DNA of 64,000 bases, taken from positions 1-64,000 of the forward strand of contig CAKZPV010000047.1 in the NCBI GenBank assembly GCA_937139405.1, written 5' to 3'. Origin of the DNA: an uncultured Nitrospirota bacterium (GTDB lineage Bacteria; Nitrospirota; Nitrospiria; Nitrospirales; UBA8639). Below, in pieces: positions 25,902 to 31,889 of this stretch (the stretch's first letter is position 1; each line of letters begins with the position of its first letter). A program made the translations under genes and the position numbers. The notes below the pieces were generated by a model. The model made no database searches. It was not told the origin of the DNA and saw only the letters and a list, made by a program, of their open reading frames with translations.

Positions 25902-27158
25902 ATGGCAGGGGCTAAACAATTGACGAATGAGGAACTCAAGCTGCAAGTACGGGAACGAACACGCGAGGTCCAAATCCTCCACCGGATCAGCGAGTCGATT
26001 AGTAGTACCTTGGAACAGGCCACCGTGTTGAAACAAATTGTGGAAGTGGTTGTTGAGGTTACGAAAGCAGATGCCTGCTTGCTCTTCTTAATTTCTGAAA
26101 ACAAAGAGGAACTGATTCTACGAGCCTCGAAGAATCCCCATCCCCGACTGATCGGGCGCATTTCACTAGGATTAGGCGAAGGAATCACAGGATGGGTGGC
26201 GCGGGAAAAAGTGCCAGTGGTTGTTCCTCGCAATGCTAGCGATGACGCCAGATTTAAGTTTTTCCATCGATTGCCGGAAGATCGTTATCAAGCCTTCGTA
26301 TCGGTTCCGATTATCAGTAAAGGCGAAATTATTGGAGTGATTAATGTCCAACATAAACGCTCCAAGCGTTATACCGAACGGACGCTGGCGTTACTCCTGA
26401 CGATTGCGAATCAAGTTGGTGGCGCTATTGCCAATGCGCGCTTGTATGATGACATGCGAGAAAAAGCGCGTCGCCTGGAAACACTTTCTCAGGTATCTGA
26501 AACCGTGGCATCGGATCGATTGATAGAAGATGTTTTGCAGTTGATTGTGACAATGACTGCACAATTAATGAGTTCAAAGATTTGCTCTATCATGTTGGTT
26601 GACCAAGATTCAGGGGAACTTCGGATTACTGCGACACAGAGTTTGAGCGATGCCTATCGTAGAAAACCTCCTTTAAAGGTGGGGCAAAGCATGAGTGGGC
26701 GGGCTGTGCAGGAACAGCGCTCGGTTTATGTGCCAGACGTGACAGCAGAAGGCGGGTATTTTTATCGTGATTTAGCGAAGCAGGAAGGATTGCATTCGCT
26801 GTTGTCAGTGCCCATGTTGATCAAAAACAATGTGATCGGGGTTATTAATGTTTATACTTCGACACATCATGTGTTTTCAGAAGAAGAAATGAAGACGCTA
26901 CAGGTTATCGCGAACCAATCAGCTGTGGCCATTGAACATACCCGCTTGCTAGAAAAATCTTTTGAAATGCAAGAGGCATTGGAAGTCCGTAAACAAGTTG
27001 AGCGGGCCAAAGGATTTCTCATGGCGTCAAAGGGACTTTCAGAGCCTGAGGCGTTTCGCCTGATGCAACGGCAGAGTATGAATTTGCGAAAATCGATGCG
27101 TGAAATTGCGGATGCCATCATTCTTGCCGAAGAACTTCAGCAAGCGACTCAAGCGTAG
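25902..27158 (+). CDS. GAF-GAF-ANTAR RNA-binding antitermination regulator
   Basis: 418 aa. A short N-terminal coiled coil is followed by GAF 1 (about residues 38-180, GRISLGLGEGITGWVAREKV) and GAF 2 (about 205-345, GQSMSGRAVQEQRSVYVPDV). The C-terminal ANTAR domain (about 355-410) has QVERAKGFLMASKGLSEPEA and AFRLMQRQSMNLRKSMREIA, matching the family AKG-LM and AFR-L--SM blocks. ANTAR proteins bind paired hexaloop hairpins in nascent RNA and prevent termination. Ligand of the GAF domains is unknown. Its gene ends 73 bp before a promoter that drives a leader with such a hairpin in front of nadE. Confidence 0.9.
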   Translation: MAGAKQLTNEELKLQVRERTREVQILHRISESISSTLEQATVLKQIVEVVVEVTKADACLLFLISENKEELILRASKNPHPRLIGRISLGLGEGITGWVAREKVPVVVPRNASDDARFKFFHRLPEDRYQAFVSVPIISKGEIIGVINVQHKRSKRYTERTLALLLTIANQVGGAIANARLYDDMREKARRLETLSQVSETVASDRLIEDVLQLIVTMTAQLMSSKICSIMLVDQDSGELRITATQSLSDAYRRKPPLKVGQSMSGRAVQEQRSVYVPDVTAEGGYFYRDLAKQEGLHSLLSVPMLIKNNVIGVINVYTSTHHVFSEEEMKTLQVIANQSAVAIEHTRLLEKSFEMQEALEVRKQVERAKGFLMASKGLSEPEAFRLMQRQSMNLRKSMREIADAIILAEELQQATQA

Positions 27159-27207: not shown

Positions 27208-27236
27208 TTTATGCGCTATTCTGCCAGGTATATAAT
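27208..27236 (+). promoter_or_regulatory. Promoter of the nadE leader
   Basis: A perfect TATAAT (27231-27236) is preceded at 17 bp by a poor -35 (TTTATG). Transcription would start near 27243 and give a leader of about 95 nt before the nadE ATG. The weak -35 suggests either dependence on an activator or a basal promoter whose output is set by the attenuator. Confidence 0.6.
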
Positions 27237-27246
27237 CTATCGAAAC

Positions 27247-27306
27247 GAGCGGCAATGAAAAGACGCTCATTAATTTTGAAAGATATGAATAGGACAATGG
27301 CGTCCT
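27247..27306 (+). promoter_or_regulatory. ANTAR-type antiterminator hairpins in nadE leader
   Basis: Second hairpin: AGGAC (27291-27295) pairs with GTCCT (27302-27306) around the hexaloop AATGGC, with A at loop position 1 and G at position 4, exactly the feature that ANTAR domains recognise. First hairpin: GAGCG (27247-27251) pairs with CGCTC (27264-27268) around a 12-nt loop that contains AATGAA, again A1/G4, but not as a clean hexaloop. The 3' arm of the second hairpin is part of the terminator stem, so the two structures exclude each other. Confidence 0.7.
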
Positions 27307-27337
27307 CGGTTCCGTTTGGGACAGAGGACGTTTTTTT
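27301..27337 (+). terminator. Intrinsic terminator (attenuator) directly before nadE
   Basis: CGTCCTC (27301-27307) pairs with GAGGACG (27324-27330). Inside, after a G-A mismatch, GTTCC pairs with GGGAC around a GTTT loop. Seven T residues follow and run into the nadE ATG. As it stands before the gene and not after one, it must act as an attenuator. GAGGA of its 3' arm (27324-27328) is also the only ribosome-binding site for nadE, 9 nt from the ATG. Confidence 0.85.
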
Positions 27338-29140
27338 ATGATGCACTTACGATTAGCAATGGCTCAGATGAATGCTGTGGTTGGCGATCTCGAGGGAAAT
27401 ACTCGTCAGATTTGTCGACTGATTCGCGAGGCCAAGAAAGCCAAGGCTGATGTTATTGTCTTTCCAGAGTTAGCTGTATCAGGATATCCCCCAGAAGATC
27501 TGCTCCTCATCCCGCAGTTTCTTAAAGATGTTCAAAATATGAAGAGTCGAATTGCCAAGGCGGCTAATGGTCTTGTGGCAGTGGTCGGCAGTATAGATCG
27601 TCCTCAGAAATTCATTTCGAAAGGAAATCCTCAATCCAAACGCTGTGATTATCTGGATAAGCAAAAACCGATGAACGTGGCATGGGTATTTGCGAAAGGC
27701 CGATTGGTTGGCAATTATGCCAAGCATAAATTGCCTAACTATGGAGTGTTTGATGAACAGCGGTATTTTCAGGAGGGGATGGCGAGCCCGATTCTTTGCT
27801 TAGGATCGGTTCGAATGGGCATCAATATTTGTGAAGATATTTGGTTTGCGGATGGGCCCGTCTCTACACAAGTCAAACAGGGCCGAGCCCATGTCATTCT
27901 CAATCTCAATGCTTCTCCCTATCATATTGGGAAAACACGCATTCGACGACGTATGCTCGCTGAACGTGCGAAAGCCTATGGGGTATTTGTGAGCTATACA
28001 AATATGGTTGGAGGGCAAGATGAATTAGTTTTTGATGGGAATAGTCTTGTGTTTGACCCTAGTGGAAAACTCATCGCGCGCGCGAAGGCCTTTGAGGAAG
28101 ATTTTCTTCTTATCGACCTTCCCATTTCTAGGATAACCAATGCCCAGCCTCCCCGAATCTCGACGAGATCGTTATCTCAGAAGAAACATGGGATTTCTTT
28201 CATTGACATTCCATGGAGATCTTCGCATTCAGAGGCTGTGTCCTGTCCTGCGGTCAGTCAATCTTCAGCTATACCTGAACCCGAAGAAATTTATCGCGCA
28301 TTAGTGCTCGGAGTGCGAGATTATGTCAAAAAAAATGGGTTTTCCAAGGTAGTGGTAGGGATTAGTGGGGGGATTGATTCTGCATTAACGGCTTTGATCG
28401 CCAGAGATGCGCTGGGTGCCTCGAAAGTAGTGGGTGTCATGATGCCATCTCCCTATACCTCCTTAATAAGTAAACAGGATTCAAGGGCCTTGGCGAAGAA
28501 CATAGGAATAGAGTTACTGAACCTTCCGATCGTCGCCCTTTACAAAACCTTTCTGCGAGAATTAGGACCACTTTTTAAAGGTTGTCCTTCCGGAGTCGCC
28601 GAGGAAAATGTACAGGCACGTATTCGTGGAACACTTTTAATGGCCCTTTCGAATAAGTTTGGCTATCTGGTGCTCACCACTGGGAATAAAAGCGAAATGA
28701 GTGTAGGGTATGCCACCTTGTATGGGGATATGGCAGGTGGATTTGCCGTTGTCAAAGATCTTCCGAAAATGCGGGTGTACCAATTGGCTCGATGGCGGAG
28801 CGACACTCAAGATACAGATTTCGACGCAGCCAGTATTCCCGAGAGAATTCAATCTCGAGCTCCATCCGCTGAGCTGAAAGCGAACCAGACAGATCAAGAT
28901 TCATTGCCGGCATACCCTGAGTTAGATGCAATTTTACAGGCCTATGTTGAGGACAATCAGTCTAAAAAGGCCATTGTGAAGTCTGGCTATCCTGTCGGTG
29001 TCGTGAAAAAGATTTTGCGACTGGTTGACCGGAGTGAATACAAGCGCCGTCAAGCGCCGATCGGAATAAAAATTACCGTGAGGGCGTTAGGCAAAGATCG
29101 ACGTATGCCGATTTCCAATCGATACCTTCCCAAGGGATGA
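27338..29140 (+). CDS. nadE: Glutamine-dependent NAD(+) synthetase
   Basis: 600 aa, two-domain form. The N-terminal nitrilase-type glutaminase has E44, K131 and C165 (in NICEDIWF) as the catalytic triad. The C-terminal synthetase has the PP-loop SGGIDS at 343-348 and NVQARIRGTLLMALSNKFGY plus TGNKSEMSVGYATLYGDMAG. It makes NAD from deamido-NAD, ATP and glutamine. Start ATG lies immediately after the attenuator T tract; a second ATG is the next codon. glnD follows 40 bp downstream, probably co-transcribed. Confidence 0.96.
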   Translation: MMHLRLAMAQMNAVVGDLEGNTRQICRLIREAKKAKADVIVFPELAVSGYPPEDLLLIPQFLKDVQNMKSRIAKAANGLVAVVGSIDRPQKFISKGNPQSKRCDYLDKQKPMNVAWVFAKGRLVGNYAKHKLPNYGVFDEQRYFQEGMASPILCLGSVRMGINICEDIWFADGPVSTQVKQGRAHVILNLNASPYHIGKTRIRRRMLAERAKAYGVFVSYTNMVGGQDELVFDGNSLVFDPSGKLIARAKAFEEDFLLIDLPISRITNAQPPRISTRSLSQKKHGISFIDIPWRSSHSEAVSCPAVSQSSAIPEPEEIYRALVLGVRDYVKKNGFSKVVVGISGGIDSALTALIARDALGASKVVGVMMPSPYTSLISKQDSRALAKNIGIELLNLPIVALYKTFLRELGPLFKGCPSGVAEENVQARIRGTLLMALSNKFGYLVLTTGNKSEMSVGYATLYGDMAGGFAVVKDLPKMRVYQLARWRSDTQDTDFDAASIPERIQSRAPSAELKANQTDQDSLPAYPELDAILQAYVEDNQSKKAIVKSGYPVGVVKKILRLVDRSEYKRRQAPIGIKITVRALGKDRRMPISNRYLPKG

Positions 29141-29180: not shown

Positions 29181-31889
29181 ATGACCCAAGGTTACTTCGG
29201 TGTTTCCATAACTTCCGCAGCCACTGGCGTGCAAAGTTTACAAGAACAACGAGAAGCCCTCTATCAACGATTGAAAGACGGGGCTTTAGGTGGAGAAATT
29301 GTTCAGGCTTTCTCCGATTTCATGGATGCACTGTTAATAACGCGGTTTCGTGAAGTGATCCAAGACGGTAAGGCCGACATTCAAATGAGCTGGCAACAAT
29401 GCTGTTTAGTCGCCATGGGAGGCTATGGTCGTCGAGAATTAGCACCCCATTCTGATATTGACGTCATGGTTTTAACCCGAGGGAACCAAGTCGAGGTAGC
29501 ACAGGCGATCTCCAAAGGCGTGTTTCATCACTTGTGGGATTTAGGGTTTCAAGTTGGGCATAGTGTCCGATCGATCGCAGAATGTCTTGAGATTGGGGAA
29601 GCCGATTTGCCGGCATGTACCTCTCTCATGGAGTCCAGATTTTTGGGAGGGAAAGCGGAAGTATTTCAAGAATTTCGGAAGAAATTTGATCGACGAATTC
29701 TCAAGCGACAGGCCAAGCAATTTGTTCTGGATAAAATCGAAGAGCGGCAGCGAGAATACGCCAAATTTGGAGAGACGGTTTTCTTACTTGAACCCAATAT
29801 TAAAAAAAGTAAAGGTGGTTTACGGGACATCCATTTGATTCAATGGATAGGCCAGGCCCGTTTTGGTGCAGGAACCATTCAAGAACTTGCCAATCAAGGG
29901 ATTTTGGCATTTCAAGACTATCAGGTACTCCAAGAGGCCCAAGAGTTTTTGTGGCGAATTCGGGGGTTTCTTCATTTTGAAGCCAAGAGAGCGCAAGATA
30001 TTCTTACCTTTGATGATCAGGTTAGGATCGCAGAATTTTTTGGCTTATCAGATCTTCCACATCTGCTGGCGGTTGAGCAATTTATGCAACAATATTTCCG
30101 TCATACGACCGGATTACATGATCAGTGTGTGCGATTTCTTGACCAAGTACAGGAGCAGTCATGGATAGATCGAATGCGAAAATGGTGGCCTCATTCATCA
30201 ATTGAAGATAATTTTCTGATAGAAAATAATCGGCTCACGATTCCCGCAGCCAAATTACATGGCGTGTTGAAAAACCCTGTGAGGCTTCTGCGATTATTCG
30301 AACTATCTCAAGAGAAAGCGATCTCCATTGATTCCAAAATTTTAAATGAATTATCTCCATATTTAAGCACTATCCCGAATGAAATGTTTCATACGGAGGA
30401 AGTGAGCAGGTTCTTTCGAGGGATTCTGAGTCGGCCAGGACGAATTGGACAGACGTTGGAAGCGATGCATCAAGCTAGTCTGCTTGAAAAACTGGTTCCA
30501 GCCTTTGCTCGAGTTCGAGGCCTCATGCAGTTCAATCAGTATCACAAATATACTGTTGATGAACATAGTCTTTTAGCCGTGAAAGAAACTGAACGGTTAC
30601 AAGATGATCAGGGGCTTATTGGTGAAGTCTATCGGCAGGTCCAGGATAAAGACATTCTGCATCTAGCTGTCTTATTGCATGACTTAGGAAAAGGGCGGCC
30701 TGGTGATCATAGTAAAATTGGACAAGAAATTGCCCATAAAATGGCTGACCGCCTGGAGTTGTCGCCGCCAGACCGGGAAGCGTTGGCCTATCTGGTGTTT
30801 CACCATTTAGTGATGTCCCATACGGCATTTCGTCGAGATCTCAATGATACGAAAATCATTCGCACTTTTGCGAGGAAAATGAAAACTGTCGAGGTTCTCC
30901 AAAAAATGTTCATCCTGACTATTGCGGATATTTCTGCCGTGGGGCCGGACGTGATGACGAAATGGAAAGAATCTCTGTTGGGTGAGTTATATACAAGAAC
31001 GTATGAAAGTTTGGTAGAGGAACGAAAGCCGACCACTACCGAAAGAGAACGATCAATTTTCCCCGCTGGATCTCGAAAGGCACTTCTTCAGGTCCTCGCG
31101 AAGCAGGGTGGAGAATGTCCTGACTCTCATCCTAACTGGGCTGCTTGGGTTGATACGCAATTCACGCAACTTCCCGATTGGTACATCGCTTCCACACCGG
31201 TTGAGCAGCTGGCAGTCCATCTCCTTGCCATAAAGAATTTGTGTTTCAGGACAACCTATGTTGATGGACGGAACAATACTGAACTGGGAATCTCTGAATA
31301 TGTCCTCATTACACGAAAACAGGCCAAACCGGGCCTCATCATGCAAGTGACTGGAGTCTTCGCGGCATTGGGGCTAGAAGTATTGAATGCCCAGATCATG
31401 ACCATGAGCGATGGCACGGTGCTGGATGTGTTTTCGGTCAATGATTCCGATAGTGATGGTCAACCGTCAGACTATCGATTAAATGAGGTTTCTCAGGAAA
31501 TTCTCGCGGTCGTGCAAGAAGAGTCTACTGTTGATCAAGTGTTCGAACGCCGCCGCCGCATGACCTTTGGCCGACAGTTTCCGACCGGACGTCGTCCAAC
31601 AGAAGTTCTCATTGATAATGAGGTATCTGATTCCTATACCGTCATTGATGTGTTTGCGGATGATAAGCCCGGCCTTTTATTCGTGCTAGCGAAAACCTTA
31701 GTGCAATTAGGTTTATCTATTCATATGGCCAGAATTGGAACGCGGTTAGATCAGGTGGTCGATGTATTTTATGTGACGAATGCTCAAGGGCATAAAATTT
31801 CTTCTGGAGAAGAGAGGGAGGAGATTCAAGGTTCTCTTCGTTTTTCAGTTGACAAATTTTTAGATGAGGAAGGCTTGTCTGCTTGCTAA
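29181..31889 (+). CDS. glnD: PII uridylyltransferase/uridylyl-removing enzyme GlnD
   Basis: 902 aa. Nucleotidyltransferase domain with GGYGRRELAPHSDIDVMVL (about residues 78-96), GlnD-type middle domain with KKSKGGLRDIHLIQWIGQAR, HD domain with HSLLAVKETERL and LAVLLHDLGKGRPGDHS, and two C-terminal ACT domains (about 710-780 and 815-895). It senses glutamine and sets uridylylation of PII, thereby controlling nitrogen assimilation. Being behind nadE, it falls under the same leader. No PII or glutamine synthetase gene is in the window. Confidence 0.96.
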   Translation: MTQGYFGVSITSAATGVQSLQEQREALYQRLKDGALGGEIVQAFSDFMDALLITRFREVIQDGKADIQMSWQQCCLVAMGGYGRRELAPHSDIDVMVLTRGNQVEVAQAISKGVFHHLWDLGFQVGHSVRSIAECLEIGEADLPACTSLMESRFLGGKAEVFQEFRKKFDRRILKRQAKQFVLDKIEERQREYAKFGETVFLLEPNIKKSKGGLRDIHLIQWIGQARFGAGTIQELANQGILAFQDYQVLQEAQEFLWRIRGFLHFEAKRAQDILTFDDQVRIAEFFGLSDLPHLLAVEQFMQQYFRHTTGLHDQCVRFLDQVQEQSWIDRMRKWWPHSSIEDNFLIENNRLTIPAAKLHGVLKNPVRLLRLFELSQEKAISIDSKILNELSPYLSTIPNEMFHTEEVSRFFRGILSRPGRIGQTLEAMHQASLLEKLVPAFARVRGLMQFNQYHKYTVDEHSLLAVKETERLQDDQGLIGEVYRQVQDKDILHLAVLLHDLGKGRPGDHSKIGQEIAHKMADRLELSPPDREALAYLVFHHLVMSHTAFRRDLNDTKIIRTFARKMKTVEVLQKMFILTIADISAVGPDVMTKWKESLLGELYTRTYESLVEERKPTTTERERSIFPAGSRKALLQVLAKQGGECPDSHPNWAAWVDTQFTQLPDWYIASTPVEQLAVHLLAIKNLCFRTTYVDGRNNTELGISEYVLITRKQAKPGLIMQVTGVFAALGLEVLNAQIMTMSDGTVLDVFSVNDSDSDGQPSDYRLNEVSQEILAVVQEESTVDQVFERRRRMTFGRQFPTGRRPTEVLIDNEVSDSYTVIDVFADDKPGLLFVLAKTLVQLGLSIHMARIGTRLDQVVDVFYVTNAQGHKISSGEEREEIQGSLRFSVDKFLDEEGLSAC

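Follow-up and report, generated by a model that had tools for sequence, protein, structure and literature searches.

The leader of nadE, the gene for glutamine-dependent NAD+ synthetase, is very probably a transcription attenuator under the control of the GAF-GAF-ANTAR protein encoded next to it, as judged from the sequence of the window (the whole stretch of 64,000 nt that was analysed) and of related genomes. This reading is supported directly by the anatomy of the leader, the conservation of its elements, the mutually exclusive pairing of two hairpins, and a strict co-occurrence with the ANTAR gene. A first-pass annotation of the same DNA had placed such an attenuator before nadE-glnD; the claim stands for nadE, and for glnD the one pointer is the 40-nt gap behind nadE, which suggests that glnD may share the transcript and its control. 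The mechanism is most likely that of the ANTAR dual-hexaloop leaders (PMC3369931, PMC8934654).

For binding, antitermination, and the direction of control, we infer the following course of events. By default, the terminator (27301-27330) would form in the nascent RNA, and transcription would mostly stop at the U tract ahead of nadE. The active ANTAR protein would grip the hexaloop of the second hairpin (P2), probably after or together with that of the first (P1), and because the GUCCU strand would then be held, the terminator could not form and polymerase would read into nadE and probably glnD.

Anatomy of the nadE leader

The following features, all on the forward strand, were assigned.

25902..27158, +, GAF-GAF-ANTAR protein of 418 aa, presumed antiterminator (Pfam GAF_2 over two stretches, and ANTAR)
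27231..27236, +, TATAAT, -10 box of the presumed leader promoter (sequence; place conserved in relatives)
27247..27268, +, P1, first hairpin, GAGCG-(GCAAUGAAAAGA)-CGCUC (sequence and folding; P1 intact in relatives)
27269..27290, +, P1-P2 linker, 22 nt
27291..27306, +, P2 hexaloop hairpin, AGGAC-AAUGGC-GUCCU, presumed antiterminator (sequence, shuffles, and conservation)
27301..27330, +, intrinsic terminator, CGTCCTC-GGTTCCGTTTGGGACA-GAGGACG, followed by T7 at 27331..27337
27324..27327, +, GAGG, the sole Shine-Dalgarno-like motif close to the start of nadE (10 nt ahead of the ATG, within the terminator 3' arm)
27338..29140, +, nadE, glutamine-dependent NAD+ synthetase, presumed controlled gene (NCBIfam NF010588, 714.8 bits; CN_hydrolase and NAD_synthase)
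29181..31889, +, glnD, PII uridylyltransferase (TIGR01693, 719.1 bits)

The series described in the first-pass annotation, namely TATAAT, a hairpin with an A1/G4 hexaloop, an overlapping terminator, seven Ts, and the nadE ATG, was found to be exact to the base; P1 (27247-27268) had gone unnoticed. TATAAT was retained at the same spot in nearly all same-genus nadE leaders, and the transcript is expected to start at about 27243. The -35 region is poor. No -35 consensus was found in the nadE leader by a simple promoter and terminator scan (loops of 3-8 nt, mismatches forbidden), which also overlooked the promoter and the terminator, so this negative was set aside.

In the P2 loop, A1 is at 27296 and G4 at 27299. 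Positions 27301-27306 are common to P2 and the terminator, the P2 3' arm GTCCT (27302-27306) lying within the terminator 5' arm. The terminator consists of a 7-bp basal stem (CGUCCUC/GAGGACG), a 5-bp apical stem, and U7, and its stem-loop alone has a folding energy of -18.5 kcal/mol; a z score of -5.2 was obtained for the terminator. Folding of the leader gave -29.7 for the terminator fold versus -20.5 when the hexaloop was enforced, so that the terminator is favoured by about 9 kcal/mol. With termination as the default and help needed for readthrough, the leader RNA looks as an ANTAR target should. The window, scanned in both orientations, contains a single P2-terminator composite, defined as a stem of at least 5 bp with an R1/G4 loop and an overlapping terminator, and dinucleotide shuffling of the intergenic sequence gave none in 5000 trials. 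A search against the Rfam families gave no match over the gathering score within the window.

The position of the sole GAGG inside the terminator 3' arm, a layout shared by most nadE leaders of the family (spacing 10-15 nt), suggests that the terminator hairpin may hinder ribosomes as well, and a second layer of control at nadE translation is possible.

Conservation and covariation

Inspection of the relatives' leaders bore out the conservation on which the first-pass annotation had staked its proposal: P2 and the terminator were almost unchanged amid diverged flanking DNA, and, with few exceptions, the nadE leaders of the family kept the hexaloop and its overlapping terminator. The loop R1-A2-N3-G4 and the GGAC/GUCC stem were retained in 70 aligned elements. 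Over 78 elements, the hexaloop read R1, A2, any base at position 3, G4, mostly G or A at position 5, and C6; since R1 and G4 were requirements of that scan, the independent signal consists of A2, C6, and the GGAC/GUCC stem.

The compensatory changes that had been proposed as a check were present in P1 and the terminator and almost lacking in P2, which shows little covariation because it is nearly invariant. In a MAFFT alignment of same-genus leaders, the terminator and P1 pairs varied too little to decide the matter, and divergent sets were used instead. Among 44 divergent P1 hairpins, 55 cells were changed on both sides versus 14 expected from shuffles. Of the cells in this set, 91 percent were paired (the nearest shifted registers gave 45-58 percent), a figure that is biased because the set was collected by requiring pairing, and the double changes are its informative part. 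For the terminator basal stem and arm (66 sequences), 12 double changes were counted versus 2.5. The best single case of covariation is a Manganitrophaceae-type nadE leader (L253), in which the left, shared, and right arms were changed together to GAAGAC, GUCUUC, and GAAGAC.

Variant leaders were also observed. In family f2 (L044-L050) and in L253, tandem hexaloop-terminator units stand one after another before nadE, and the f2 leaders have one more hexaloop hairpin ahead of them, in which loop position 1 is often G. One nadE leader (L027 / L238, genome G036) kept the terminator 3' arm and T-run and had lost the P2 left arm, with the ANTAR gene present; this looks like decay of one target.

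The first hairpin and the linker

The P1 of relatives forms a proper hexaloop hairpin with A1 and G4, for example GGGCGAC-AAUGAA-GUUGUCC. The window P1 retains AAUGAA and has lost two closing pairs, which leaves a 12-nt loop, and the outer stem GAGCG/CGCUC stands in place of the relatives' stem. The nadE leader of the window has no P1 hexaloop with three or more closing pairs; most relatives and the second target of this genome do have one. The degenerate P1 may make this leader a P2-only switch or weaken its response. A single hexaloop has been argued to be the minimal ANTAR binding motif (PMC8934654).

The P1-P2 linkers of 57 elements measured 14-41 nt, with one outlier of 73 nt and a median of 23 nt. 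The 22-nt linker of the window falls outside the 5-12 nt of the Enterococcus faecalis eut leaders, and in E. faecalis eutP hardly any induction was left once the linker had been lengthened to 14 nt (PMC3369931); the general definition of the ANTAR dual-hexaloop leader permits a variable linker, the range of 5-12 nt being that of E. faecalis eut.

Five nadE leaders of the g4 genus (L033, L036, L067, L074, and L075) carry P2 and the terminator without a recognisable P1 hexaloop. From their sequence, they may be natural cases of antitermination with a single hexaloop. The lack of P1 in these leaders, like the damaged P1 of the window, the long linkers, the scant covariation of P2, and the replacement of EutV Arg168 and Arg177 described below, counts against the proposed mechanism.

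Co-occurrence with the ANTAR gene and alternative explanations

By its named relatives, the genome belongs to the order Nitrospirales and lies nearest to MAGs such as OFTM42 and UBA8639. An ANTAR orthologue was found in 51 of 60 relatives, one per genome, with nadE as the next gene in most. The covariance-model search suggested in the first-pass annotation was carried out on all 60 genomes using a model built from P2 and the terminator, and it gave matches in exactly the 51 with an ANTAR domain and none in the other nine. The nine come from two genera, one in family f3 and the other in family f4, and represent at least two independent events rather than nine. The nadE leaders inspected in ANTAR-less genomes had neither T-run nor attenuator.

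These data bear on three other explanations. The hairpin could be a mere terminator of the upstream aroC-aroB-ANTAR transcript with a coincidental hexaloop, given that intergenic terminators are ordinary and that the ANTAR gene ends 180 nt upstream. However, the stretch from that gene to the terminator holds a conserved -10 box and P1, R1, A2, G4, and the GGAC arm are needless for a terminator and yet conserved in 70 elements, and the same composite precedes unrelated genes elsewhere while being absent from ANTAR-less genomes; coincidence is therefore very improbable. Still harder to credit is a sensor other than ANTAR, either a riboswitch or another RNA-binding protein, with the ANTAR gene as a bystander. 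The degenerate P1 and the long linker of the window would suit such a sensor, but no Rfam family matched anywhere in the window, presence and absence track the ANTAR domain across the 60 genomes, and conservation is highest at the bases of the ANTAR hexaloop.

The least improbable of the three, although unlikely in itself, is a mainly translational switch in which the terminator-like hairpin masks the only GAGG of nadE and ANTAR binding frees it. In agreement with this, most nadE leaders of the family have the masked GAGG at 10-15 nt from the start and lack any other ribosome-binding site, and ANTAR RNAs that overlap ribosome-binding sites have been reported in mycobacteria (PMC8934654; PMC8164766). 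Against it, a tract of U7-U9 is retained that would be superfluous in a switch of translation alone, and 10-15 nt is a long spacing. Moreover, the start codons of the other targets and of family f2 are well downstream of the hairpin and have a purine-rich site of their own. Transcription attenuation by the GAF-GAF-ANTAR protein is the reading preferred below.

The ANTAR protein and its signal

The ANTAR domain of the 418-aa protein scored 72.5 bits versus a curated Pfam cut-off of 27.3, and this protein, encoded directly upstream of the nadE leader, was the one ANTAR match in the whole genome. Its AlphaFold model had a mean pLDDT of 83. The residues equivalent to the EutV RNA contacts Arg142, Lys143, Lys149, Glu160, Met172, and Arg175 were invariant across 36 orthologues. 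EutV Tyr164, which stacks on G4, was replaced by Phe in 36/36, so that the aromatic is kept, and Arg168 and Arg177 correspond to Gln and Ser in the GAF-GAF-ANTAR protein.

Among curated families and solved structures, the first GAF domain was nearest to the PtsP GAF (TM-score 0.86-0.89 by target length). A fold search returned tandem GAF matches only, and these did not indicate a ligand. Because the PtsP GAF binds glutamine (PMC4848567), glutamine is a reasonable guess for the signal; that the protein responds to a nitrogen-status metabolite, either glutamine or 2-oxoglutarate, is the likeliest reading and a guess given a little less than an even chance.

Other targets

An exact pattern, GGACRANGNCGTCC, matched only the nadE site in the genome of the window and had 2 matches in the reversed control; a second site was found with the covariance model (G000:C3, P1 205924-205943, P2 205964-205977, E 3.7e-5). 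It precedes a gene for a BBP2 porin, which is followed by two amt genes and glnA. At the sites examined in relatives, the element stood before the same porin in 21 cases, before a formate/nitrite transporter gene (nirC) in 15, often with a nirA-type reductase gene 1.5-3 kb behind, before a sigma-54 activator gene in nine, and before genes for an NMT1-type ABC binding protein (nitrate/nitrite-type) and another porin-like protein in four each. Since NIR_SIR counts alone cannot separate NirA from an 840-aa homologue, only positions beside attenuators were used. The gene nadE retained the element where it lies away from the ANTAR gene (L206, L209, Nitrospira moscoviensis L234, and N. defluvii L088), and beyond Nitrospirales the element was found ahead of nadE, glnA, a porin-like ORF, or a sigma-54 activator gene. 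As far as the positions of these elements tell, the predicted control is that of a small nitrogen-assimilation regulon and not of nadE alone. A nitrogen theme is known for ANTAR regulons, and the target functions found here match it (PMC3369931).

A third hexaloop-like hairpin, CACG(A)C-AAUGAC-GCGUG, was seen in L178 at about 2075-2095 and in the same place in L179, L180, L183, and L185; it sits between the porin-amt terminator and the porin start.

Comparison with known systems

The predicted system resembles the EutV type (E. faecalis eut; PMC3369931, PMC8934654) in its A1/G4 hexaloop, in the 3' arm that serves as terminator 5' arm, in the second hexaloop hairpin upstream (in relatives), and in an ANTAR protein with most of the RNA-contact residues unchanged. 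It differs in its tandem GAF sensor, where EutV has a phosphorylated receiver, in its linkers (about 16-37 nt versus 5-12), in the G that may occupy loop position 1, in the change of Tyr164 to Phe, in the damaged P1 of this leader, in the tandem attenuators of some lineages, and in its targets (nadE, porin, nirC, and a sigma-54 activator).

The nitrate-assimilation ANTAR regulators NasR and NasT of Klebsiella, Paracoccus, and Bradyrhizobium would work alike, and the relatives' targets include nirC-nirA for nitrite uptake and assimilatory reduction. Unlike in those systems, the NIT domain is absent here, no NasS-type partner was found beside the ANTAR gene, and the predicted regulon covers ammonium uptake, glutamine synthetase, and NAD synthetase.

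PII controls glutamine-dependent NAD synthetase by protein-protein contact, and nadE-PII gene islands include Nitrospirae (PMC7196632). Both systems tie NadE to nitrogen status; unlike that control of the enzyme, the one proposed here would act on nadE transcription, alongside the PII-modifying enzyme GlnD. NAD synthesis would thus join the processes under ANTAR control, beside the known PII-NadE link.

A full-text literature search found no paper on ANTAR control of nadE or on a Nitrospira ANTAR regulon; the supplementary list of predicted ANTAR RNAs in 1902 genomes (PMC3369931) lay outside the search and may hold a Nitrospira entry.

Genomes without the ANTAR protein

Nitrospira are the most widespread nitrite oxidisers and are hard to manipulate genetically, and to our knowledge the regulation of nitrogen assimilation in them is hardly known. 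The proposed attenuators offer a concrete one-protein regulon with RNA targets, open to in vitro study. An AMO-family gene was found in all five ANTAR-less genomes of family f3 and in no other of the 60, and these five most likely represent comammox Nitrospira. The sixth genome of their genus has no AMO gene and retained the ANTAR gene and two attenuators. Comammox genomes have been reported to be without assimilatory nitrite reductases (PMC6311188), which would fit a regulon lost along with its function. The AMO-positive genomes, with neither ANTAR protein nor any detectable attenuator, would provide the regulatory counterpart to that lack.

A wider reading is put forward only tentatively, as somewhat doubtful in its entirety. 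The GAF-GAF-ANTAR protein would be a dedicated nitrogen-assimilation regulator of a class that includes the Nitrospira nitrite oxidisers, sensing glutamine or 2-oxoglutarate through its PtsP-like GAF domain and acting on long-linker attenuators, single-hexaloop or tandem in some lineages, to govern both transcription of nadE and ribosome access, and complete ammonia oxidisers would have lost this system along with nitrite assimilation.

In the f4 genomes without the ANTAR protein (L245-L247), a gene for a NifA-like GAF / sigma-54 activator follows nadE, which there too lies beside a GAF-type regulator.
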